Positions 51,887 to 63,209 of a DNA stretch of 64,000 nucleotides are shown here, piece after piece (positions within the stretch are counted from its first letter, which is position 1; each line of letters starts with the position of its first letter). The notes beneath the pieces were generated by a model. The model was given only the letters and a program-made list of their open reading frames with translations, was not told the DNA's origin and did not search any database. The stretch spans positions 558,001 to 622,000 of the forward strand of contig NZ_SJPI01000003.1 of assembly GCF_007859865.1 (NCBI RefSeq). The letters run 5' to 3'. Made by a program: the position numbers and the translations under genes. This DNA is from Rubripirellula amarantea (GTDB lineage Bacteria; Planctomycetota; Planctomycetia; Pirellulales; Pirellulaceae).

Positions 51887-51925
51887 CCCGCAATCGGAAC
51901 GATTTCCGATTGCGGGATTTTTTTT
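51887..51925 (+). terminator. Terminator between the convergent oxidoreductase and membrane-protein genes
   Basis: CCCGCAATCGGA (51887-51898) pairs with TCCGATTGCGGG (51905-51916) around a six-base loop, followed by A and eight T to 51925. The T-run includes part of the stop codon of the convergent gene on the minus strand. Confidence 0.93.
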
Positions 51926-52361
51926 AACCGCGAATCTTGACAAACCCCGAGATCATCACAATCGCGGTGGCAAGCACAACTAGCATTGTCAAGTATTTGG
52001 GACGACTGTTGCGAATGAATGCCAACTTCTCGCTGCGTCCGACCATCGCCGCTGCAAGAAAGAAAACAACAAACGCCATCAGCATCTTGGTTCCCACTAA
52101 AGCGTGATACAAACCATCGCCTTTGTGATTGGGAATCGCTCGGAAATAGTTGTAGAAACCGCTGACGAGAAACAACAGCACTCCGCCGTGCACGAATCGC
52201 TTCCAACGCCCCATCAACGCGGTGGCAAGCGTTTGGTGCTCGGCGTCACTGATTTGCTTCGCAGCGGGCATCAACGCCAAAAGCGTAAACACGCTGCCGC
52301 CGACTAAGGTGATCGCGGTCCCCACGTGTACGACTCGCGAAATAACGTCGATCCAAAACAT
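51924..52361 (-). CDS. Small CopD/HemJ-like four-helix membrane protein
   Basis: The start at 52361 has AGGA 8 nt upstream and gives MFWIDVISRVVHVGTAITLV. The 145-residue protein has four hydrophobic segments, with the pattern of histidines in RVVHVGT and RFVHGGVLLFLVSGFYNYF that resembles CopD/HemJ-type (UPF0093-like) membrane proteins, which bind heme or copper. The assignment is by pattern only. It is the last gene of the kinase-dynamin-TolQ cluster, 43 nt after the C39-like peptidase gene, and its stop lies in the terminator of the convergent gene. Confidence 0.55.
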   Translation of the reverse strand: MFWIDVISRVVHVGTAITLVGGSVFTLLALMPAAKQISDAEHQTLATALMGRWKRFVHGGVLLFLVSGFYNYFRAIPNHKGDGLYHALVGTKMLMAFVVFFLAAAMVGRSEKLAFIRNSRPKYLTMLVVLATAIVMISGFVKIRG

Positions 52362-52404
52362 AAATGTATCCTGCCAATGCTCAAGTGCTAAAAGGTTGAT
52401 GGGG

Positions 52405-53304
52405 TTAAGTCGGCGATCTTGGTGCCAACACGATCGCTTCGTCTCGATAAAGCACTCGCAGGTCTTCCTGGCTCCACGCCTCACGACCGATTGCTGGATC
52501 ACCAATGTCTACCATCCCATCTGGCTTGATTCCAAACAAGACGACAGAGTGACGAAAGCCCGGAGCCCATCCGTATCGACGAACGTATTTCGGATCGGCA
52601 CCGAATCGAGGTAACCCGACGACAACAATGCAGGGATAGGGTCCGCTCTCGATCAATTCGATTGCCGTAGCCTTTATCACCATTGGCCTGGTGTTTTGAC
52701 CCGCAGTCGCTTTGACCAACCCTCGCCACAAGCCCAGCGAGGGTGTGCCTCTTGCATCCGTCAGACACCATTGCACCATTTGAGCTTCCGACACTTCCAC
52801 TCCGGACGCTCGCAACAATGTTGCTCCCGCCGCTGCGCTGCACGTTCGATCATGAGATTGAATGCACACTCCGCCGTCGGCCCATTGGTTTCCTCCGTAG
52901 ACGGGACGAAAGAGCGGTTGAAGAATGGGTTGGAACAACGTAGCAACCATCAAGAACAACAAACTGACCGCTCCGAACACTTGTCTCCATTTCGGGCGAC
53001 GTGGAAGTCGGTACGCAGCCCCCGCTGCGACCGCCAACGCGATCACGGTAAGGTTGGACCAAACGATCGCGGCTGATGAGGGAATCCAATTTGCCCAAAA
53101 GATTCGATCTTTACTGAAGAAGATCAGTGCAAGCGATGACAGTGCAGCGATGGAAGCAATCCATGACGACCAATGCGAAGGCACTGATGGCTGAGAACCT
53201 AGATCTGCGAACTCGCTTGGCGGTCGAAGCCACATTGCCATAGCAATGGCAACTAGCACCCCCAATGTTCCCATCGTGCCAATTGCAATCCAAAGGTCGC
53301 TCAT
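52405..53304 (-). CDS. Membrane-anchored C39-like cysteine peptidase
   Basis: The 299-residue protein has about four hydrophobic helices (IAIGTMGTLGVLVAIAMAMW, SSWIASIAALSSLALIFFS, NLTVIALAVAAGAAY, FGAVSLLFLMVATLFQPILQ) and then a C39-like domain from about residue 140. The Gln and nucleophile Cys of GGVCIQSHDRTCSAAAG, the His in FRHSVVLFGI and the Asp in DIGDPAIG are all present, so the peptidase could be active. The C39 fold processes leader peptides at double-glycine sites in other contexts. There is no ABC transporter here. It starts 15 nt after the TolQ-like gene in the operon. Confidence 0.75.
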   Translation of the reverse strand: MSDLWIAIGTMGTLGVLVAIAMAMWLRPPSEFADLGSQPSVPSHWSSWIASIAALSSLALIFFSKDRIFWANWIPSSAAIVWSNLTVIALAVAAGAAYRLPRRPKWRQVFGAVSLLFLMVATLFQPILQPLFRPVYGGNQWADGGVCIQSHDRTCSAAAGATLLRASGVEVSEAQMVQWCLTDARGTPSLGLWRGLVKATAGQNTRPMVIKATAIELIESGPYPCIVVVGLPRFGADPKYVRRYGWAPGFRHSVVLFGIKPDGMVDIGDPAIGREAWSQEDLRVLYRDEAIVLAPRSPT

Positions 53305-53319
53305 GATGCACCGTAGCCG

Positions 53320-54144
53320 CTAACCGGAAGCATCGCCGGTTCCACGCGGCGGCACGGAAGGAGGTTGCTGGACGACCGGCGGCTGCGAACTTATGGGAGC
53401 CGCTTTCGTCACCGGCTTGGCCGCCGTAGCCGCTGGCGTTCGAGTTCGTGATGTCGGTCGCCGCTTAATGGGAGCAAGAGCATGTTGAGACTGGTAAGCC
53501 ACGTCAGCAATCAAAGCGTCGACTCGATTGCGACACACCGCGTAGATTGCCAGTGACGGAATCGCAACGATCAATCCACCCACTGTCGTTACGAGTGCTT
53601 GGTAAATTCCTTCAGCCAAGTCGCCTGCACCGGCCGCTCCGCGCGTCGTCGCAACCTGCTGAAAGGCAAAGATCATCCCGGTAACGGTGCCCAACAATCC
53701 CACCATCGGTGCGATGTTGCCAATCACAGATAAATACTCAATTCGCCGCATTAGCCTTGCTGCTTGAGCCGCCAAAGAATCTTCGACAGCCTTTTCGACC
53801 TCGTTCCATCCCAAGTCAAGTTCCGACAAACCCGACAACAACACAACGCTAAGTACACTCGGCTCTCGGCGGCACGCGGCGTCGGCTTCGGGCAAGCGGC
53901 CGGTCAAGAGCGCCTGTCGCACAGCATCCGATACACCATCGGGAACAATCTCTCGTCGCCTTAACGACATAACTTGATCAAATGCTAAGTAAGCAGCCGA
54001 AACACTAAGCGCAAATAAAACGATCAAAATCAGCAGGCCAAAAATTCCACCGCTGAAAATGACGTCGACCCACCCCGTTCCTTGGTCCTCGTCGAGTACG
54101 ACGCCATTCTGTGCCCACACCAAAGCGATCCTCAAACACATCAT
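53320..54144 (-). CDS. MotA/TolQ/ExbB family proton-channel protein
   Basis: The 274-residue protein has an N-terminal segment with a first helix (IFGLLILIVLFALSVSAAYL), a cytoplasmic insertion DAACRREPSVLSVVLLSGLS typical of TolQ/ExbB, and two further helices (LSVIGNIAPMVGLLGTVTGM and LVTTVGGLIVAIPSLAIYAV) with the TxxGL and GxxxAIP-like motifs of this family. The C-terminal 60 residues are a Pro/Ala/Lys-rich tail. Such proteins form proton channels with ExbD/TolR, but no ExbD gene is in the window. The ATG at 54144 overlaps the stop of the upstream dynamin gene by 4 nt (ATGA), so translation is coupled. Confidence 0.9.
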   Translation of the reverse strand: MMCLRIALVWAQNGVVLDEDQGTGWVDVIFSGGIFGLLILIVLFALSVSAAYLAFDQVMSLRRREIVPDGVSDAVRQALLTGRLPEADAACRREPSVLSVVLLSGLSELDLGWNEVEKAVEDSLAAQAARLMRRIEYLSVIGNIAPMVGLLGTVTGMIFAFQQVATTRGAAGAGDLAEGIYQALVTTVGGLIVAIPSLAIYAVCRNRVDALIADVAYQSQHALAPIKRRPTSRTRTPAATAAKPVTKAAPISSQPPVVQQPPSVPPRGTGDASG

Positions 54145-55973
54145 GAAACTTCCTCGCGATCATCTTCCTGGTCAACCGCTCCCACCGAAAGCAAAAACTC
54201 GGCGTCGGCCAACAATGGTTCGTCCCACTGCAACCGCAACACACCATCGCTTTGCAGCTTCACGATCGTCTCGCTATGGCGATCACGTATTCCAGACTCG
54301 GCTCGAATGACACGTCTGCGGCTCTGGACGAACGAAAGCACAAACATTGAAAAGATTGCGGTAGGCAAGACCGACAAAATCAAACTGGTCAACATCATCG
54401 CAAAGTCAGGTTTGGGAAACGCTGACAAGTTTCCCGAAAAGTGGGAAAGGGTATCGAAACTGGCGTCAAAATAGCCGCGATACAACGCGATGACGGGGCC
54501 GGACATCAGCAACCAAAAAATGATTGTGCCAATCAATCCGAACAGGAAACCGAGTCCTCGAGACGCCGAAACCTTATCAACCTCTTCTTCAAAGATTTGT
54601 TGCGAACGTTCCTGCAGCGTATCGATTCCTGACAAGTACGCCAATTGGCCGCGTGTGCCATCTTCCACCATCGAAGGAACGGAAGACTCTTTCTCGTGCC
54701 TGAGGTGCGCCAACTCGCGACGAAAGTTCATCGCGAGCGGCCCTAACCGATCAGCAACCGCGGCGGCGCTTCTTTTTCGCAAACCATCTCGCACATCCGC
54801 GTTCGCATCCCGGTCGGACGTTAAGTTCTTTGTCGTCGTCCACACGGTGCTAACCAGCGACGGCAACGATCCCGATAGAGACATCAAAACACGATCCCAT
54901 GCGCCGTGCGTAAGATTCAGCAGTCCTAGCAAACTTCGATACGGAAACCAAAATGCCGCCGTATCGGTCAGAAGCGACAAACGTAATCTTGATCTGATTG
55001 CCGCTCGCAACGTCCCGCTATTGCCCACCAGTGACCCTGCCACTTCGCCCGGCAACGCAAGAGCCTCGCGATTGAGTCGCATGACGGCACCGGTCAATTC
55101 GGGCAAGTGATCGCTGAGGACTGAATGCAACGCGCATCGAAAGCGGGCGTCGAGTGCAGCCAAGCGAGTCCCTCGCCTACGATCGCCTTCCCAAGACTGA
55201 GCCAATTCCGATTCAATCCGTGAACTAATTGTTTCGGCTGCAACTCGGCCTACTTCATCTTCCGTGTTGTTTTGCACGTCGAAATCTTCGATCACAATCG
55301 GTGTCGCGATCTTGCTAGTGGGTGCCACCGAACGCATGCGTCCGACGAAAGCATCCATATCCGCAACAAGTGTCTCGTCCTTACGAACCGCGTTGACTAC
55401 TGGAATGACAATCGTGCCTTCGCTGGCCTCGGTCGTCATGGCGATCGTTCGACTTCGCAATTGGTCTCGCCGAACCACCAACAACAAGATCGAAGCCAAC
55501 GACAAGGCTCGCCCCGCCGCAGCAGCAATAGCCCGTCGATCGTCGGTCGAACCAGGCGCGTCGACCAACAGGTACGGCATCCCAATGGATTGCATTTCGG
55601 AGGTGGGGCAATGAACGAATTGCTCTAGTCGAGAATCCAAATCCGCAGGCGGAAACGGCCCAATCCAAAGAAGCTTTTCGGTGGCTTCGTCCAAATTGTT
55701 GCCACTGCGAACACTCTTGGCTGCGGCCGAACCTCGAACCAATTGTCGAACGATCCACGACTTACCCTGTCCGGTCGCACCCACGACGGCAACAACGGTC
55801 AAACCACGACTGCGATCGTCACAAATCATACGCCTTGCTTCGGCATGCTCGTCACAAAGTTCAAGCACTTCACGACCAGCAGCACTTTCGCCAAGCACAG
55901 ACTTTGCCGAACGCCGAACGCGCTGCAAAAATTCGTATCCGGGCACCGCCAAGAAATCGTCACCGCCACTCAT
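54141..55973 (-). CDS. Dynamin-like GTPase with C-terminal membrane segments (second of a pair)
   Basis: From the ATG at 55973 the protein has about 610 residues; the frame opens earlier with GTG at 56072, but the extra segment has no visible domain and neither start has a Shine-Dalgarno. The P-loop is VGATGQGKS (about 64-72), G3 is VDAPGSTD and a possible G4 is NAVRKDE. Regions of heptad-like helices follow (REALALPGEVAGSLVGNSGT, ALDARFRCALHSVLSDH). Two membrane helices lie near the C-terminus (LGFLFGLIGTIIFWLLMSGP and FAMMLTSLILSVLPTAIFSM). This is the plan of bacterial dynamin-like or Era-type membrane GTPases. No canonical G4 NKxD is present. Between the sister GTPase and TolQ genes. Confidence 0.72.
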   Translation of the reverse strand: MSGGDDFLAVPGYEFLQRVRRSAKSVLGESAAGREVLELCDEHAEARRMICDDRSRGLTVVAVVGATGQGKSWIVRQLVRGSAAAKSVRSGNNLDEATEKLLWIGPFPPADLDSRLEQFVHCPTSEMQSIGMPYLLVDAPGSTDDRRAIAAAAGRALSLASILLLVVRRDQLRSRTIAMTTEASEGTIVIPVVNAVRKDETLVADMDAFVGRMRSVAPTSKIATPIVIEDFDVQNNTEDEVGRVAAETISSRIESELAQSWEGDRRRGTRLAALDARFRCALHSVLSDHLPELTGAVMRLNREALALPGEVAGSLVGNSGTLRAAIRSRLRLSLLTDTAAFWFPYRSLLGLLNLTHGAWDRVLMSLSGSLPSLVSTVWTTTKNLTSDRDANADVRDGLRKRSAAAVADRLGPLAMNFRRELAHLRHEKESSVPSMVEDGTRGQLAYLSGIDTLQERSQQIFEEEVDKVSASRGLGFLFGLIGTIIFWLLMSGPVIALYRGYFDASFDTLSHFSGNLSAFPKPDFAMMLTSLILSVLPTAIFSMFVLSFVQSRRRVIRAESGIRDRHSETIVKLQSDGVLRLQWDEPLLADAEFLLSVGAVDQEDDREEVS

Positions 55974-56077
55974 TCGGGGTCGGCTTTCCGTTGAATACTC
56001 GTGCGTGTCAGTCAAGGTGTCTGTCGTGAAAGAGGAGTTATCTGTCGTGAGCGAGGGCACGCATGGGAGCACAAAGT

Positions 56078-58210
56078 CTAACGTTTTTGGTTAGGAAAGT
56101 GATCCCGTAACGACTTGCGGAAGTCATCACGCATGCGGTGCAATGGCAACGTGGCGTGATTGGATGCGCGTGCAGCGATCTTGGGAATCGGCAATTTCAC
56201 GCTCACACCGCCCACCTTTATTGTCTCGGGAACTTCGACTCGAGCGACACCAAAGGTATCGCATAGCACGGCCTGAAAATCGGCAACTTGTTGACGCGCA
56301 GCTTGTTGTTCGACGTTTCGGGTGTTTTGCTTGCCCGCCCACATCGTGGCAAAGGTTGTTAAACCACCGGCAATGAACAGTTCGGACATGGACGCTGAAG
56401 CAATCAATGTGCTTCCGAAGTCGACCGGCAAAGTCAACACACCACCGAAAGCCGCCAACAATGCACCGAGCGGGGTCAATCCAACGAGCAGCTTCTTGCC
56501 ACGCGGGACTTCCTCCCACATTTGACGCACTGCCTCGTCCAATCTTCGCGGATCCAAAGAAGTAAAGTCGTCTCGTTCAAATCGCAAAATCGCTGCCTCA
56601 GCGGCATCATTCCACATTTCTTTTGACTCTGCGGTAACTGAAGGACTCGAAAGATCCGGCCAATGCGGCAACTTGGTCGCACCGCCATGACGGTCAATCG
56701 CCAGAGTCAGTTTCTGGGGTGTCAACAACCCGCCGTATTCTCCTCGCTTGAACTTATCTTTGATGTCACCGGCGGTTCTTTCCGCAATCGCAGTCGGCGT
56801 TAGGCTGCGCAACAGGTTGCCCGCTCCCCCGAAGAAATTTCTCATTTTGGCGTTCAACCGCACACCCCATCGCGCATACCACGGCGCTGTGATCGCAAAC
56901 GATTCAGTCAATTGACGGATAATTCGTTCGCTTTGGTGCAGTCGCAATTCTGTGATTTCGGAACCGAGACCACGATGAGCAAAGAAATCCAAAGCTGCGT
57001 TCAGCAAACAACGTTGTCCTTCGAAGGTTTGCTTCTCCGATCGAGCGGCATCTTTCTCGAGCTCTCGGTAGGCGTCTTCCCAAACCACGCGATAAAGATT
57101 TTCTTCCAACGAATAGCGAAACGTCTCGAAGAGAACACCGCGGTCCAATCGAGCAGGCATCGCCTGTAGCATGCGGCTACTCTCGATCGCTGCGGGTGGG
57201 TTTTCCTCGGTCGCTGCGCGAAGAGAAAAGAACACCGGCAAAGAATCCGATTCGGGATCGAGGGCCCGCGCAACCACGTCATCCGGTGCGGGTATGAACG
57301 GACGACTCGATGGGATCTCGAAATCGTACGCCGCATAGATCGTTTCAATTCCGTGAGTTCTGGCGAGCGGATCAAACGTTTCGAATACTTGATCGGGCGT
57401 TTGCCGGGGTCGTATTTTGTTGACTGCCAACATGCGAGGGATTCCCGGCATCAAGTCCGAGGCAATGCGAAGCAAGTCGCCCAGTGCCGCATCGCGAGAC
57501 GATTCCGCCGACGTTACCACTAAGAATGCCGAGCACAACGTTGCTGCGCGACTGAGAACAGCTCGTCGGTCTTGCGGTGACCCCAAACCAAAGGCTTCGT
57601 CGGAAACAATGTCCGGACAATCGAGCAAACCTAAGCCAATCTGATTGAGCCGATCGTCCGTTGCTACCAGAGGTACGGAAAGCAGTTCGGCATTCCCGTC
57701 GTGATTGTTGTACTGTTGATGGGCAACCGCAGGATCAAGACTCAGCATTTCAGGCGTCTCGCCAATTGAATCGCCAATCCGCTGCATTAGCAGCCCCCAC
57801 AACTCGGCGTCACTTTCCCATTGCGATGGCAACCACAAGACAAAACGATGTGTGCCTTCGCGGTTGCTGCTTCCTCGCAAGGTCCTAGCGCGGCCCTGCT
57901 CACTTAGGAAGGTTGCCACCAACGAAGTCTTACCGCTGTTAAGCATTCCCGCGACCGCTACGGTCGGCCAATCAACCAGTTGTTCGGCGGTATGAAATTG
58001 ACGCCCCGCCGAAAGCACCTCCGCAGCCAACGTGGTCGTGCTATCGCGAGCATCAAATCGACGCAGCGCTGACAAGAAACTTTCGCGACCTTCGTTGGGA
58101 TAAACGCGTTCGACCGCAGCACGCTGGTCATCGTCTTCCAACAACGACAACAGAGACGACCAGTCAATGTACGTTTTCGATCCTCGTTTCGCAGTTCCAA
58201 AAATGCTCAT
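56078..58210 (-). CDS. Dynamin-like GTPase with membrane segment (first of a pair)
   Basis: The 710-residue protein has a P-loop VAGMLNSGKTS (about residues 86-96), a G3-like LDCPDIVSDE, and G4 VNKIRPRQ with a canonical Asn-Lys. A long helical stalk region (AYRELEKDAARSEKQTFEG, ERIIRQLTESFAI) and a hydrophobic segment near residue 575-630 (LLVGLTPLGALLAAFGGVLT) follow; the C-terminus is basic. Layout fits bacterial dynamin-like proteins, which hydrolyse GTP to bend or fuse membranes. It begins inside the stop of the upstream kinase gene (ATGA overlap 58207-58210), so both are translated together. Confidence 0.78.
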   Translation of the reverse strand: MSIFGTAKRGSKTYIDWSSLLSLLEDDDQRAAVERVYPNEGRESFLSALRRFDARDSTTTLAAEVLSAGRQFHTAEQLVDWPTVAVAGMLNSGKTSLVATFLSEQGRARTLRGSSNREGTHRFVLWLPSQWESDAELWGLLMQRIGDSIGETPEMLSLDPAVAHQQYNNHDGNAELLSVPLVATDDRLNQIGLGLLDCPDIVSDEAFGLGSPQDRRAVLSRAATLCSAFLVVTSAESSRDAALGDLLRIASDLMPGIPRMLAVNKIRPRQTPDQVFETFDPLARTHGIETIYAAYDFEIPSSRPFIPAPDDVVARALDPESDSLPVFFSLRAATEENPPAAIESSRMLQAMPARLDRGVLFETFRYSLEENLYRVVWEDAYRELEKDAARSEKQTFEGQRCLLNAALDFFAHRGLGSEITELRLHQSERIIRQLTESFAITAPWYARWGVRLNAKMRNFFGGAGNLLRSLTPTAIAERTAGDIKDKFKRGEYGGLLTPQKLTLAIDRHGGATKLPHWPDLSSPSVTAESKEMWNDAAEAAILRFERDDFTSLDPRRLDEAVRQMWEEVPRGKKLLVGLTPLGALLAAFGGVLTLPVDFGSTLIASASMSELFIAGGLTTFATMWAGKQNTRNVEQQAARQQVADFQAVLCDTFGVARVEVPETIKVGGVSVKLPIPKIAARASNHATLPLHRMRDDFRKSLRDHFPNQKR

Positions 58211-60477
58211 GTTTCCGTCACAAAGTCGTGCTTGCCGTCATTGGTTTTTCCGCAGGACGATGCGTCCGCGTTGGAGGACCGTAAGACGTCTTCCCACCAA
58301 CGAGCAGATTCGAATTCGTCCCAGGTGTTGGCATCGTTGCATGATCGCAGTGCCAATGCTAGGTCTTCGGCGGTTCGCGGTCGTTCGCCAGCGTTTTTTC
58401 GTAAGCAGCTCATGATCACATTTTGCAGATCCTCGGGCAAAGGCCTGCCAAGTCGCTCAATAGGACGAATGGGGTTCTCATTGAGCTGCTTCATGCAAAT
58501 GTCGACCGATCCCGCAGCGTCAAAGAGTGGTTGCCCCGTCAGCAGCACATATCCTACCGCCCCCACAGAATACAGGTCGCTTTGCGGCGTCGTCAGAGCC
58601 GCATCCCGAACCGCCTCGGGTGACATATACATGGGCGTTCCGGTGATCGAATCGGTGCGTGTGAGCGTATCGTCGCACGAAACGGTCGAAACTTTCTTTA
58701 CCAACCCAAAATCGACGACCTTTATGATCTCGCTGACTCCCGCAAACGAGCTCAATAAAAGATTGGCGGGTTTGATGTCGCGATGAATCATATCCTTTTG
58801 ATGAGCCTCAGCTAAGGATCCGCAAATCTGGATCAGCAGATGAATCACACGTCCGGGCGGCTGTGCCCCATAGCAATCAACTAGTTCTTGTAGAGTCAGC
58901 CCATCGACATATTCCATCACGTAAAAGAACACTCCATCATCCGTCAGGCCAAAGTCATAGATATCAATGGTGTTGGGATGCTGCAAAGAAGCTGTCAATT
59001 GAACTTCGCGCTGAAATCGGGAAGCGGATAACTCGTCAAGTTCGTCTAGCTCGTCCTTGGCGAGCACCTTGATCGCGACAGGTCGCTGCAGCAATTGATG
59101 AGTGCCTTTGTAAACCGACCCCATTCCCCCGCGACCGAGCAGTTCGCCCATCGCGTACTTCCCCAGCCCACGAGAAGATTCCCGAAACAGGTCGACTTTG
59201 CGATGCATGTGGTAGGTCGTTTCACCCAAGACAACAATGCCAAGGACTGCGGTGCCAAACAAAGCTAACAGGCCAAGCATCGAACGTCGCAACAATCCAA
59301 GAGCTCGATAAGCTTCATCGACATCCAACTCGGTCGCGACACCAAGCTCGTACTCGGGTAACCACGTCCACGCCCCCACGACTGCAACGCCGCGGTAGTC
59401 GTTGTAGCCGACCACATTGTCACCAGTCCCACCGCGAGTGGCCTGATCCGCCATAAACGTCAGCCTTGGCTGATTGCGAGTGGACGAAGTCTTGTTTCGA
59501 ACGGTCACTTCGTCAGTAGGGTCATAGATCAACACATTCAAGGTGCTAACCACTCGCTGATCGCTGGGTAATTTCCCCGCGTCACGTAGTTGGTCTTCAA
59601 ATCGACTTCGGGACAACATGACGCCATCGGAATCGAATGCATAGGTTTCCCCCGATTGCCCATGACGGGCAACGGAAAGCAACTGGGTGAATCGCTCGAG
59701 GGGATCGAGCAGAAACATCAAGCTGCCCACGGCTATCGCTCCGTTTTTGATGGGAGCCAATGAGGCCATTACCGGTCCGCCGGGAATCGAAAGCGGACCT
59801 GAATCTTGCATAGCGATGGGCGAAGCAAAGGGATGACAGATTGCTGTTTCCAATCCAATGATGCGACGCGTGATTGTCTCCGGAATCGGCAGCCGCTCTA
59901 GGACCAATCCTTCCACGCTCGATGCCACCACAACGCCATCAAGCGTTACGACGCACCATCCAATGTGTGCATCGTTTCGCAGCTCGCTGACCAGCGTGTT
60001 CAACGCAGCACTGTTTGGAAGCGCGACGGATTCTTGCTGCTTCGTTGACGTTGACTTCGAAAGCAATGCCGCAGCCGCCGATTGAATTGACTCAGGCTCA
60101 GCTGCGCGACGGGCAATGGCTCGCTGTTCACTCAACCACATTTCGAGCGATGAAACATTGGCGAGCAAAATGGTCTGCATCGACTCTCGGGTAACCTCTC
60201 GCATCGAATTGCGAGCGATCAAACCGATCCACAAAGTCAGAAGCGTTGAAACTAACACCAGCGCGGCGATCAACCCAAACCAACGACGTCGGACTAAGCC
60301 CGCGGCTGCATGCCAACGTTCTGCAAGCGTTCTGAAAATCGCAAACCGGCCGCGATAGAATCGTTGGGCTTGTCGATTAGATGCCCGTTCGGGTGAAGAA
60401 GACTGCCCGAAACCATCCCTCGATTTCACCTTCGGGGTTGTCGAGTTTTCGGACAAAGTTTTGGATGTGGCGGGCAT
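58207..60477 (-). CDS. Transmembrane Ser/Thr protein kinase with N-terminal sensor domain
   Basis: The 756-residue protein has a cytoplasmic N-terminus, a membrane helix (GLIAALVLVSTLLTLWIGLI, about 67-86), a Cache-like extracytoplasmic sensor (about 90-400, with GWCVVTLDGVVVASSVEG and ETYAFDSDGVMLSRSRF), a second helix (LGLLALFGTAVLGIVVLGE) and a Hanks-type kinase from about residue 440. GELLGRGGMGSVYKG is the glycine loop, AIKVLAKDEL the ATP Lys, MIHRDIKPANLLL the catalytic loop and VVDFGLV the DFG. All catalytic residues are present. It is upstream of and translationally coupled to a dynamin-like GTPase, and 53 nt downstream of a cytochrome-containing gene. Confidence 0.95.
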   Translation of the reverse strand: MPATSKTLSENSTTPKVKSRDGFGQSSSPERASNRQAQRFYRGRFAIFRTLAERWHAAAGLVRRRWFGLIAALVLVSTLLTLWIGLIARNSMREVTRESMQTILLANVSSLEMWLSEQRAIARRAAEPESIQSAAAALLSKSTSTKQQESVALPNSAALNTLVSELRNDAHIGWCVVTLDGVVVASSVEGLVLERLPIPETITRRIIGLETAICHPFASPIAMQDSGPLSIPGGPVMASLAPIKNGAIAVGSLMFLLDPLERFTQLLSVARHGQSGETYAFDSDGVMLSRSRFEDQLRDAGKLPSDQRVVSTLNVLIYDPTDEVTVRNKTSSTRNQPRLTFMADQATRGGTGDNVVGYNDYRGVAVVGAWTWLPEYELGVATELDVDEAYRALGLLRRSMLGLLALFGTAVLGIVVLGETTYHMHRKVDLFRESSRGLGKYAMGELLGRGGMGSVYKGTHQLLQRPVAIKVLAKDELDELDELSASRFQREVQLTASLQHPNTIDIYDFGLTDDGVFFYVMEYVDGLTLQELVDCYGAQPPGRVIHLLIQICGSLAEAHQKDMIHRDIKPANLLLSSFAGVSEIIKVVDFGLVKKVSTVSCDDTLTRTDSITGTPMYMSPEAVRDAALTTPQSDLYSVGAVGYVLLTGQPLFDAAGSVDICMKQLNENPIRPIERLGRPLPEDLQNVIMSCLRKNAGERPRTAEDLALALRSCNDANTWDEFESARWWEDVLRSSNADASSCGKTNDGKHDFVTET

Positions 60478-60530: not shown

Positions 60531-62843
60531 CTATTCTCGAAATCCTTGTTTTTGGAAAGGATCGCTTTCGATGATTCCCACGATCAGGTAGGCGAAGCGA
60601 TAATCCTTGGCACGCACGTCAGCCATGATCTTATCGACCGCACATTTATCGTAATATTCCGTCCCGCGACCAATCGCGTAAATCATCATCTTGTCAGTCA
60701 AACAGCGAACAAACTGATCTCGCCGCGTCGTCGACAATAACTTGCGCAGGTCCTCAACGCCGGAGAATTCAGTTCCGTCGGGCATCTTCCCAGACGCGTC
60801 GATTTCATCTCGTCCTTCTCGCGTTCGCCAAGCTCCCACGGCATCAAAATTCTCCATTGCAAACCCCAGCGGATCCATCATGTTGTGGCACGCTGCACAG
60901 GCTGGATTGTCTCGGTGTTGTTCCATTCGCTCGCGAAGGGTCCCTACCAGCTTGCTCTTTTCCAATTCAGGAATATTCGGCGGCGCGGGTGGCGGTGGTG
61001 TGCCCAGTAGGTTGTCGAGAATCCACTTTCCTCGTTTGACCGGGCTCGTGCGCGTCGGGTTGCTTGTGACGGTCAAGACACTCGCGTGCGTCAACAATCC
61101 ACCTCGCGGGGTACCAGCTAGCGAGACCTTTCGAAAGTTGTCACCGGTAACGCCCGATATGCCGTAGTAGCGAGCGAGCTGTTCATTGAGATATGTGAAA
61201 TCAGCATCCAACAAAGTTGTGACGGGTAAGTTCTCTCGCATCACTCCGGCAAAGAATGTCAAAGTCTCTCGCCGCATTAGATCTCGAATCTCATCATCAA
61301 ACATTCGGTACATCCGAGTGTCTGGGTTAACGGAGTCGAGGTTACGCAACTGAAGCCATTGACCTGCAAAATTTTCGACAAATCGATTAGCGCGTGGATC
61401 ACGAATCATCCGAGCAACCTTGCTGAGCAATTTCTTTCGGTCTCGCAGTTCACCCCGATGAGCAAGCAGTAGAAGCTCGTCGTCGGGCATGCTGCTCCAC
61501 AAGAAATACGAAATGCGGGTAGCGAGTTCGTATTGCGAAATCGGCGGCATCTTGCCGCTGGAATCGGGGCCGCGCGGAGCTTCAACTTTGAATAAGAAAT
61601 GCGGTGAAACAAGAATGGCTTGCAGTGCCACCTGGATTCCTTCCTCATAGCTACCACCATCGGCGCGAACGTCCGCAGCCAGCTTCACCAAACGATTCAC
61701 TTCGTCGCGATTAGCAGGTCGGCGAAACGCCCGACTGGCGAGGCGACTTACAACCGAGGCAGTCGCCTGGTCATCACTTCGCTGCGATCCGGGGGTCACG
61801 AAGATTAGCTTCCTGTGACTCGCGGGCAACTGCTTGGGTGACACTAAGGACGATGTGACCTCGTCCCCACGCAAATGCAAATGATGGACGCGAAGGTTTC
61901 GATCCTGTCCATCCTTGTAGTAGTCGTTCACGAAACTAATTTCAAACTTCTTAGTTCCTTTCGCCAATCGCATCCGAACTTCGTAATCCTTGGGTTCCTT
62001 GTTCGGGACATCGATGATCTTTTCCTTGCGTCCGACTTGGACTTTCATACGACATGGATCGGAACCACCTTGGTCACCACTGGCGGTTAACGTTAATGTG
62101 TAGATCCCGCCAAAGGGCAAGTCCGTCTGCATCGCCACCGTTCCGTTGCTGCCCATGTTCAGCGAGCCGTTACGGTACGTATATTTTTCTCCACCGATCA
62201 AGTCACTGGGAACTTTGTCGATCTCGTAAATCTCGCCTGGTGGGGGAGTGTAAATCGCTTTGCCGGAAATGTACTCGGCAGCGTCGAGATACTTTTCAAT
62301 TAGCAATGGTGGTAGCGAAAGCACATCACCGATGTTGTCAAAACCGTAGCCAACGTCATCGCCAGGGAAGTTACTGGCGGGTTTGTAATTCACTCCCGTC
62401 AAATCACGTACCGTGTTTTGGTACTCAGCTCGGTTGAGTCGGCGCAACGCAACCTTTCCCGCGTTCGGATTTCGAACGCAATCAACAGCGTTAGCAAGCT
62501 CGTCGAGCCACTTGATCATCGACTCACGAGTAGCCGCATCCATCATTTCGCCATCTTCAGGCGGCATGGAGCCCAATTGCACTTGCGCCAACGCGCGAAC
62601 CCACAAGTTGCGATCCTTCAACAAGTCTCCGGCCGAGGCGTGATCTTCGAGCGAGATATCGCTGCCCGATTCGTGGCAATCGATGCAATAAGTCTTTAAT
62701 AACGGCGACAATACATCGCGATAACCGGCTTCACGCGAGGCGTTATCGGCATTGGCGTTTGTGGCCCAGGCAAAGAAGCATACGCATACCCACAAGAAAT
62801 AACGGTGCGTTGGCCTAAAGAGAAAATCAAACGACAACTGCAT
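60531..62843 (-). CDS. Exported DUF1592/DUF1588-type protein with cytochrome c motifs
   Basis: The start at 62843 gives a signal peptide (YFLWVCVCFFAWATNANADN). The protein, about 770 residues, has a first CxxCH in YCIDCHESGS (planctomycete cytochrome c-like domain), then the DUF1587-like region VALRRLNRAEYQNTVRDLTG, DUF1595/DUF1592 parts (RAFRRPANRDEVNRLV, ELATRISYFLWSSMPDDELL) and the DUF1588/DUF1585 parts with a second CxxCH in CAACHNMMDPLGFAMENFDA. Function is unknown; heme and a periplasmic redox role are likely. These genes are usually followed by a DUF1552 partner, but here a Ser/Thr kinase gene follows 53 nt downstream. Confidence 0.92.
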   Translation of the reverse strand: MQLSFDFLFRPTHRYFLWVCVCFFAWATNANADNASREAGYRDVLSPLLKTYCIDCHESGSDISLEDHASAGDLLKDRNLWVRALAQVQLGSMPPEDGEMMDAATRESMIKWLDELANAVDCVRNPNAGKVALRRLNRAEYQNTVRDLTGVNYKPASNFPGDDVGYGFDNIGDVLSLPPLLIEKYLDAAEYISGKAIYTPPPGEIYEIDKVPSDLIGGEKYTYRNGSLNMGSNGTVAMQTDLPFGGIYTLTLTASGDQGGSDPCRMKVQVGRKEKIIDVPNKEPKDYEVRMRLAKGTKKFEISFVNDYYKDGQDRNLRVHHLHLRGDEVTSSLVSPKQLPASHRKLIFVTPGSQRSDDQATASVVSRLASRAFRRPANRDEVNRLVKLAADVRADGGSYEEGIQVALQAILVSPHFLFKVEAPRGPDSSGKMPPISQYELATRISYFLWSSMPDDELLLLAHRGELRDRKKLLSKVARMIRDPRANRFVENFAGQWLQLRNLDSVNPDTRMYRMFDDEIRDLMRRETLTFFAGVMRENLPVTTLLDADFTYLNEQLARYYGISGVTGDNFRKVSLAGTPRGGLLTHASVLTVTSNPTRTSPVKRGKWILDNLLGTPPPPAPPNIPELEKSKLVGTLRERMEQHRDNPACAACHNMMDPLGFAMENFDAVGAWRTREGRDEIDASGKMPDGTEFSGVEDLRKLLSTTRRDQFVRCLTDKMMIYAIGRGTEYYDKCAVDKIMADVRAKDYRFAYLIVGIIESDPFQKQGFRE

Positions 62844-63209
62844 GGTGGGATTTATGTTCCGACGGAAGGGCGATTGAAGGGGATCTCGGCGGGACACAAT
62901 CAGAAATCCAATCAAGAGCATGGCAAATCCAGTGGCGTGACCGCCAAGATTTGAATCTTTCCCAGGTTCACATTTCTTTCCCAGGCTTCCATCGTGCACC
63001 GAAGTCTAACCTCTAGTTTAAACTGACGCGAACCTGAAACCCCCACGAGCTAACTCGATCGGGGCAGAGTACAATAGAAGATTAACCAAGCAACGGTTTT
63101 TGGTTTAAGAAAAACGGCTGCGAAGAATTGAAGTACTCGAAGAAATCAGTGAGGCGGCCGTCGAATTCACACTCCGCGTGAAGTCACGCCCACCACAAGG
63201 GCCCACCAC
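62844..63209. promoter_or_regulatory. Divergent gap before the zinc-ribbon protein
   Basis: About 366 bp separates the divergent cytochrome-type gene and the zinc-ribbon gene. A TACAAT hexamer at 63070-63075 may be a -10 for the plus-strand gene, though no -35 was seen. CCTGGGAAAG occurs twice on the minus strand at about 62952-62982. No gene is supported. Confidence 0.3.

Follow-up and report, generated by a model that had tools for sequence, protein, structure and literature searches.

A conserved dynamin-like GTPase pair of Rubripirellula amarantea and its relatives adjoins an ExbB-type gene, with related ExbD genes kept at a second locus

To our knowledge, few physiological partners of bacterial dynamin-like proteins have been described. 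Planctomycetes show deep invaginations of the inner membrane and an unusual mode of division, and the machinery behind them is largely unknown. According to PMC6104087, the genes for bacterial dynamin-like proteins mostly occur as operon pairs. The accessible part of PMC12204202 describes, for the group of Planctomycetes, Verrucomicrobia and Chlamydiae (PVC), a gene set made of a TPR gene, a tolQ-like gene and two tolR-like genes, together with a vWA gene. Here we describe a locus of Rubripirellula amarantea, found in a 64,000-nucleotide stretch of its genome (the window; contig NZ_SJPI01000003.1, positions 558,001 to 622,000), which holds parts of both kinds. Two dynamin-like GTPases (GTP1 and GTP2) are followed by an ExbB/TolQ-type gene, and the ExbD pair related to the partners of this ExbB (ExbD1 and ExbD2) is encoded elsewhere in the same genome.

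The six-gene arrangement at the locus was confirmed as real. Six open reading frames (ORFs), all on the minus strand, span 60477–51924 of the window:

58207..60477, minus strand: sensor Ser/Thr kinase (Pkinase; motifs read from sequence)
56078..58210, minus strand: GTP1, dynamin-like GTPase of 710 residues (predicted fold, G1, hydropathy)
54141..55973, minus strand: GTP2, dynamin-like GTPase of 610 residues from the ATG (predicted fold, G1/G3, hydropathy)
53320..54144, minus strand: ExbB/TolQ-type motor subunit of 274 residues (MotA_ExbB over cut-off)
52405..53304, minus strand: membrane protein with a C39-type peptidase domain, a probable passenger (Peptidase_C39)
51924..52361, minus strand: small CopD-like membrane protein (weak NCBIfam copper_CopD match)

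An earlier note on this DNA had described six genes running in one direction with ATGA overlaps between kinase and GTPase and between GTPase and TolQ, and the ORFs and junctions (kinase/GTP1 and GTP2/ExbB) bear this out. GTP2 starts either at an ATG at 55973 (610 residues, preceded by a gap of 104 nucleotides) or at a GTG at 56072 (643 residues, gap of 5 nucleotides). The gaps before the C39 gene and the CopD-like ATG measure 15 and 43 nucleotides.

Gene order and its conservation are established by a synteny table of 44 genomes (the window included, one entry per genome; L110 and L111 look near-identical). GTP1 adjoins GTP2 in 36 of the 44 and GTP2 adjoins ExbB in 33, while a further GTP2-ExbB case (L093) is broken at a contig end. 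The kinase lies upstream of GTP1 in 18 of 39 GTP1 loci. A CopD-like gene stands at the locus in 5/44 genomes, ExbD in 1/44 and the C39 gene in 1/44, the window only. The conserved core is GTP1-GTP2-ExbB, often with a Cache-like Ser/Thr kinase in front. The six-gene neighbourhood proposed earlier holds for this core, and for the kinase in part; the C39 and CopD-like genes are excluded as conserved members by their rarity at the locus. The locus is not due to chance, because GTP1, GTP2 and ExbB are long conserved ORFs that keep their order side by side in dozens of genomes. In genomes with a split set, the kinase remains with GTP1 (G034 and G027) and ExbB with GTP2 (G034). GTP2 and ExbB are also together in L081, L082, L101 and L105, where the stretch examined does not include GTP1.

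Among 60 relatives, a set that includes the genome of the window, GTP1 was found in 24, GTP2 in 24 and both in 23; the two genomes with a single GTPase are 77% and 66% complete. Within the genus, 20 of 22 genomes have GTP2; a family-wide search found it in 114 of 241 genomes, which belong to 17 of 68 genera. The GTPases looked rarer in a phylum-wide draw, with only 2 and 3 of 294 genomes. The 39 named loci from a contig scan include Rubripirellula, Rhodopirellula (R. baltica too), Roseiconus, Stieleria, Neorhodopirellula and Pirellula, as well as two Verrucomicrobia/Opitutales contigs (L116 and L117). The GTPase pair crosses phyla, since both of these contigs carry GTP1 beside GTP2 (GTP1 profile E 7e-61 and 1.6e-101). 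We also observed a distant pair of neighbouring P-loop proteins in G052, from another family of the order (L123, 7729–9798 and 9785–11689, both minus strand); the first protein matches the GTP2 profile (hhalign 96%), and the second gave no match to GTP1.

By its sequence, the ExbB of the window is a member of the MotA/TolQ/ExbB family. It matches MotA_ExbB (PF01618) with 95.7 bits against a Pfam cut-off of 22.9 and has three hydrophobic membrane segments and a proline-rich tail. Thr residues of ExbB/TolQ proteins play a role in the pore. T153, T186 and T187 are invariant in 16/16 sequences, their role being taken as given for the TolQ-type pore in the accessible part of PMC12204202. The third membrane segment lacks a Glu, whose position we take to be that in E. 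coli ExbB. The idea that this marks a dead channel was rejected, because four ExbD-paired paralogues from the same genome that were caught by the pattern also lack it.

The genome has seven MotA/ExbB-type genes, four with an adjoining ExbD and two with a MotB/ExbD-like ORF (assigned by eye); the window ExbB is the one of the seven with neither. ExbD was seen near one of 65 GTPase loci scanned (L101). The genome also gave eight ExbD hits, all of them next to an ExbB except for the tandem pair at G000:C1:1422718-1423542. We built an ExbD profile from seven ExbDs that stand next to ExbB orthologues, none of them from this genome. The first member of the orphan pair, ExbD1, was its best match (136.8 bits), against 94.6 bits for another ExbD and 90.9 for the second member, ExbD2. 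Both orphans retain an intact MTPMIDVVF helix. The pair is followed by a 796-residue protein. Pfam matched a single TPR stretch in it, under the cut-off, and nothing more; it reported no vWA domain there, and no genome-wide vWA search was made. The claim that this ExbB has no ExbD partner proved true only locally. At a second locus of the same genome lies a unit of ExbD1-ExbD2-TPR type, whose homologues share an operon with ExbB orthologues and which probably supplies the partners; the reading as a true orphan was rejected. Genes in the accessible part of PMC2754498 resemble, by number, a different, paired ExbB-ExbD, and the locus tags given there could not be mapped to present genes.

Many genomes without the GTPases have an orthologue of this ExbB, with 49–68% identity. 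In 17 of 20 such loci, one or two ExbD genes are nearby (the exceptions are L171, L173 and L175). The gene upstream of the orthologue matches TPR families in two of three scanned. The large downstream protein of L167, the only one scanned, matches TPR/ARM families, and its relatives come after the ExbDs in several other loci. A placement table for the 60 relatives, compiled from the coordinates of GTP2, ExbB and ExbD1, shows that the placement differs. ExbB adjoins GTP2 in 21 of the 24 genomes with GTP2, and ExbD1 is adjacent in none of these 21; it lies elsewhere in 19 and was not found in two. The remaining GTP2 genomes have a contig break (G009), all three genes apart (G031), or ExbB beside ExbD1 with GTP2 far away (G027). 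ExbB, ExbD1 or both occur in 25 genomes without GTP2, where they are adjacent in 20, apart in three and one of them is missing in two (G010 and G015, which are 66% and 74% complete). None of the three proteins scored over the threshold in 11 of the 60.

The ExbD1-ExbD2 unit persists without ExbB. In all 13 such regions taken from GTP2-ExbB genomes (L182, L213–L222, L225 and L226), it stands with a homologue of the large protein and has no ExbB. Another 11 genomes with named loci have two ExbDs with no ExbB within 1.5 kb (R. baltica, K23_9, CA13, R. maiorica, Roseiconus, Stieleria, TBK1r, R. europaea, N. pilleata, Rhodopirellula sp. JC639 and SM50), and four of them also gave a detectable relative of the large protein. 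Two ExbDs without ExbB were also found, on short contigs, in the genomes of L112, L114 and L115, and a single such ExbD hit in those of L105 and L108. The genome of L103 gave only a weak ExbD match and that of L117 none; those of L101 and L110 have ExbB beside ExbD. L101 is likely an intermediate arrangement: one contig carries GTP2, ExbB, ExbD and ExbD in a row, and the next gene is of amylase type and unrelated. Two further observations concern these loci. In G031 (L175, 8020–10457, minus strand), the ExbB orthologue comes after a 511-residue protein that no Pfam family matches; a PP2C phosphatase gene follows downstream, and ExbD is missing. In five of the 13 regions, a kinase-like gene of 542–578 residues, weakly matching the window kinase, is no more than about 5 kb away from the orphan ExbD1-ExbD2:

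L182, 2750–4486: kinase-like gene
L213, 6008–7639: kinase-like gene
L214, 2584–4221: kinase-like gene
L216, 2335–3996: kinase-like gene
L225, 6395–8023: kinase-like gene

The predicted folds of both GTPases are closest to dynamin-like proteins (mitofusin, BDLP, Cj-DLP). The top Foldseek matches were DRP1, BDLP and IniA for GTP1, and BDLP and Cj-DLP for GTP2, not the ordinary ribosome or Era-type GTPases that, by the earlier note, would have refuted the system. VIA-align clearly prefers mitofusin/Fzo1 for GTP1. For GTP2, the G domains of EF-Tu and Era reach the same Z as mitofusin (MFN1), over a much smaller portion of the chain; because of this tie, the dynamin call for GTP2 rests on coverage and Foldseek and not on Z alone. 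Both proteins consist of a G domain and a helical neck/HD1 made from N- and C-terminal helices. A membrane-binding hairpin near the tip of the trunk is predicted for both by hydropathy, at approximately 574–625 in GTP1 and with segments 477–495 and 531–549 in GTP2. All 26 GTP2 proteins have two hydrophobic segments near the C-terminus, and 20 GTP1 proteins have one strong segment, usually plus a second, weaker one. D597 and E610, within or between the hydrophobic segments of the GTP1 hairpin, are invariant in 20/20 sequences; the alignment of GTP2 proteins showed no invariant acidic residue in the two membrane segments.

Canonical G1–G4 motifs have the forms GxxxxGKS/T, T, DxxG and N/TKxD. G1 is present in both GTPases (GMLNSGKT in GTP1 and GATGQGKS in GTP2). 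G3 is altered in GTP1 (DCPD; DAPG in GTP2), and G4 is altered in both (NK[IV]R and VNAVR-type, respectively). We therefore describe the two as dynamin-like by fold and not as canonical dynamins. No Pfam family scored over its cut-off for the GTP1, GTP2 or CopD-like protein of the window; under the cut-off, GTP1 matched Dynamin_N (11.8 vs 27 bits) and GTP2 matched MMR_HSR1 (17.2 vs 21.9 bits). The two sequences gave no match to solved structures up to E 1, and their profiles gave weak G-domain matches only (best E 0.12 and 0.005). When the two profiles were compared with each other, only the G domain aligned, with a probability of 31%.

The kinase matches Pkinase with 157.7 bits (Pfam cut-off 31.7), and the motifs VAIK, HRD and DFG can be read from its sequence. 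Its sensor region scores 23.2 bits with dCache_1, under the Pfam cut-off of 45, and is called Cache-like here. Hydrophobic segments at 69–87 and 400–418 flank this domain, and the protein kinase domain follows at 441–703. The C39 protein matches Peptidase_C39 (PF03412) with 26.9 bits against a cut-off of 22.0. Its motifs TCSAAA, RHSVV and GDPAIG, read from the sequence, hold the Cys, His and Asp, whose roles we presume; that these residues of the predicted peptidase are intact, as noted before, stands. Its family has three members in the genome, and relatives occur in 26 of the 60 genomes, at other places. The CopD-like protein scores 18.6 bits with NCBIfam copper_CopD, far under the cut-off of 195.

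Trees were examined for ExbB and ExbD1. On the ExbB tree, which has 53 rows, long outgroup branches and a bootstrap that had not fully settled, the 28 GTP2-linked ExbBs form one clade (99/94) nested in a family-wide clade (99/96). The latter includes 12 of the 21 other orthologues, and G027 is sister to the GTP2-linked clade (98/94). L101 and L105 make up a lineage of their own next to the remaining 26 GTP2-linked rows, which group together only weakly (89/39). Four of the 21 other loci (L171, L173, L175 and L229) have no ExbD in the stretch. The tree thus points to one origin for the placement of ExbB next to GTP2. On the ExbD1 tree (58 rows), 26 of the 29 orphan ExbD1s group together (99/97). 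Distances of ExbB and ExbD1, given GTP2, correlate across 23 genomes with a partial r of 0.72, and 1 of 2000 permutations was as high.

The reading we favour is that a kinase-linked dynamin-like pair is linked with an ExbB/ExbD motor whose parts come from two loci, and that the two may be coupled physically; we would neither bet on this nor against it. A membrane-anchored GTP1-GTP2 pair would have captured the ExbB/TolQ gene of a motor of ExbB-ExbD-ExbD type, if the move went in this direction. ExbB from the locus would then most likely still assemble with ExbD1 and ExbD2, which are encoded elsewhere with the TPR-type protein, into an ion-driven envelope motor of 5:2 type. Production of ExbB, and probably its placement or assembly too, would be tied to a dynamin-like hetero-oligomer in the inner membrane. 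The kinase may sense a periplasmic signal and switch the GTPase pair, its presumed substrate, by phosphorylation. The pair may bend, tether or mark the inner membrane at the site where the motor pulls on the envelope. We infer in this sense the phospho-regulated, energised membrane-remodelling machine that the earlier note proposed; of the note's observations, the neighbourhood of the pair and ExbB holds, that of the kinase in part, and the extent of six genes and the missing ExbD do not. The stronger form, in which the dynamin-like heteropair physically controls, or is driven by, a two-locus rotary-type ExbB/ExbD motor under a periplasm-sensing Ser/Thr kinase, we regard as doubtful.

Several points weigh against a tie between the pair and the motor. 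The pair stands without an adjoining ExbB in Pirellula-type loci (L046, L110–L112, L114 and L115) and, within the stretches examined, in the Verrucomicrobia contigs L116 and L117, so ExbB is not required for the pair as such. ExbB is kept with ExbD, and the GTPases lie elsewhere, in G027 and in the genome of L110. At 21 of the 39 GTP1 loci, some of them at contig ends, no kinase was found upstream. With DCPD at G3 of GTP1, and a canonical NKxD in neither protein, their use of GTP is only presumed. Among the GTP2 proteins, 21/26 match MMR_HSR1, a general GTPase family (best E 4.2e-5), and 9/26 match GBP (best 9.7e-5); at E≤0.1, Dynamin_N is matched by 9/26 GTP2 (best 0.00096) and 2/20 GTP1 proteins (best 0.0071). 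On the ExbD1 tree, the orphans lie beside the ExbB-linked ExbD1s and not nested inside them, and three divergent orphans (L215, L245 and L247) fall outside the main orphan clade. When G355 and G361, in which both proteins are fast, are left out, the partial correlation of ExbB and ExbD1 drops to −0.10; ExbB then follows GTP2 (partial r 0.65) and ExbD1 does likewise (0.61). As both sets of distances follow GTP2, shared genome history may explain both, and the co-evolution test supports an ExbB-ExbD1 link weakly at best. Finally, the relocation is one event on the tree, so the linkage could be inherited rather than selected. The ExbB gene may simply have landed behind GTP2 once, with the motor and the GTPase pair acting in separate processes and sharing only a transcript. 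The single origin, the ExbB-less pairs and the existence of ExbB-ExbD without GTPases all fit this hitchhiking, which we take seriously and still consider unlikely: GTP2-ExbB is held in 33/44 genomes from several genera while the kinase, CopD-like, C39 and SDR neighbours vary, and the split set of G034 still has ExbB after GTP2. That ExbB follows GTP2 without G355 and G361 also speaks for the link, with the reservation that ExbD1 does so too and shared history is possible.

The remaining alternatives concern what takes the place of ExbD and which genes belong to the system. One is that the hairpin of GTP1 or GTP2 serves as the axle of the ExbB pore in place of ExbD, and that the GTPase is thereby driven by, or gates, ion flow. 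ExbD is absent next to ExbB wherever GTP2 adjoins, save L101, the acidic residues D597 and E610 of GTP1 are invariant, and a vWA family that takes the place of TolR in TolQ pores is proposed in the accessible part of PMC12204202. We nevertheless find such an axle improbable, as the membrane segments of GTP2, which is the gene actually next to ExbB, contain no acidic residue that is invariant, D597 and E610 are equally invariant in GTP1 of the ExbB-less loci L110, L112, L114 and L115, and the orphan ExbDs persist with their intact helix. Far less credible still is an anti-phage defence operon of Zorya type, a MotA/TolQ-like channel plus an effector, with the dynamin as membrane effector. ExbB weakly matches ZorA (best 12.9 bits) and PADLOC gave generic kinase matches, but no other Zorya model is among the PADLOC matches listed for the six proteins (the best 25 of 35 for the kinase), so that the Zorya set of ZorA with ZorB and ZorC/D or ZorE comes down to a weak ZorA and defence was deemed unlikely. 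GTP2 is also present throughout most of the genus, unlike typical defence islands, though in only 17/68 genera of the family, and the ExbB comes from an orthologous group widespread in the order. We give equally little credence to a full six-gene machine in which the C39 peptidase and the CopD-like protein also have a function. The short gaps on one strand of the window suit it; the counts of 1/44 and 5/44 at the locus, and the C39 relatives at other places, three copies in this genome among them, do not, although this comparison counts against it for the family and not for the present species alone. Set against these alternatives, a dynamin-like pair tied to a motor assembled from two loci remains our preferred reading.

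The genes flanking the six encode, by Pfam, a DUF1592-type protein and a Gfo/Idh protein. The former is a planctomycete cytochrome-type protein (DUF1592/1588/1585/1587/1595; 60531–62999, minus strand like the kinase), and 53 nucleotides separate it from the kinase, which lies downstream; G003 (L029) shows this gene order too, again with a short gap. As this gene is close upstream in the window and G003, the transcript may begin further upstream in those two. On the plus strand, between the convergent Gfo/Idh (+) and CopD-like (−) genes, a 13-bp stem with a T-rich tail at 51887–51916 is a possible terminator, although terminator-like sites overall are no commoner than in shuffles. The SDR gene after ExbB in many genomes is an ordinary dehydrogenase by Pfam. 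In L037–L041, a gene for 915–940 residues and one for 810–830 residues precede GTP1, and no kinase was found; the 915–940-residue protein of L037, the one scanned, has a VWA domain.

The linkage hints at a coupling of membrane shaping with envelope force. If this is true, dynamin-type membrane shaping would be coupled to the proton-motive force, which would be a new kind of bacterial machine. The conserved tie between a dynamin-like pair and a Tol/Exb-type subunit, with related ExbDs elsewhere, offers a testable route from ion-motive force to membrane shape in this group. It is also a caution that the partners of an 'orphan' ExbB may be encoded far away in the genome.

Compared with known systems, none of the parts is of a new kind; they are a Cache-like kinase, a pair of dynamin-like proteins and a motor of ExbB/ExbD/ExbD type that has TPR-type neighbours. 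The Myxococcus AglR-AglQ-AglS gliding motor is said to combine one TolQ with two TolR-type partners and to work with GTPase-controlled machinery; its GTPase is reportedly a small Ras-like protein, unlike GTP1 and GTP2. Cj-DLP1/2, BDLP, IniA and mitofusin/Fzo1 share with GTP1 and GTP2 the G domain with a helical neck and the C-terminal hydrophobic hairpin, and the bacterial pairs are likewise neighbours. GTP1 and GTP2 differ from such pairs in their few Dynamin_N matches, the altered G3 (GTP1) and G4 (both), and the linkage to ExbB and a kinase. With ExbB-ExbD-TonB and TolQ-TolR-TolA, the system shares the MotA_ExbB domain, three membrane segments, the pore Thr and ExbD/TolR-type proteins in the genome; the likely partners are here encoded elsewhere. 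Zorya ZorA shares a MotA/TolQ-type channel subunit, with a weak score. The TPR-tolQ-tolR-tolR set of the PVC group resembles the ExbB orthologues that have one or two ExbDs in GTPase-free relatives (17/20 loci), with TPR upstream in 2/3. ExbBs of the GTPase clade stand apart from ExbDs and beside GTP2, and the accessible part of PMC12204202 mentions no GTPase; the large downstream proteins scanned have no vWA domain by Pfam, and the window species splits the parts over two loci. No published account of the operon was found in the literature on planctomycete dynamins and on dynamin-like proteins with ExbB, judged by titles and abstract openings, with most subscription papers outside the search. 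As far as this search goes, what is new is the placement of ExbB beside a dynamin-like pair while ExbD1-ExbD2 is kept elsewhere.

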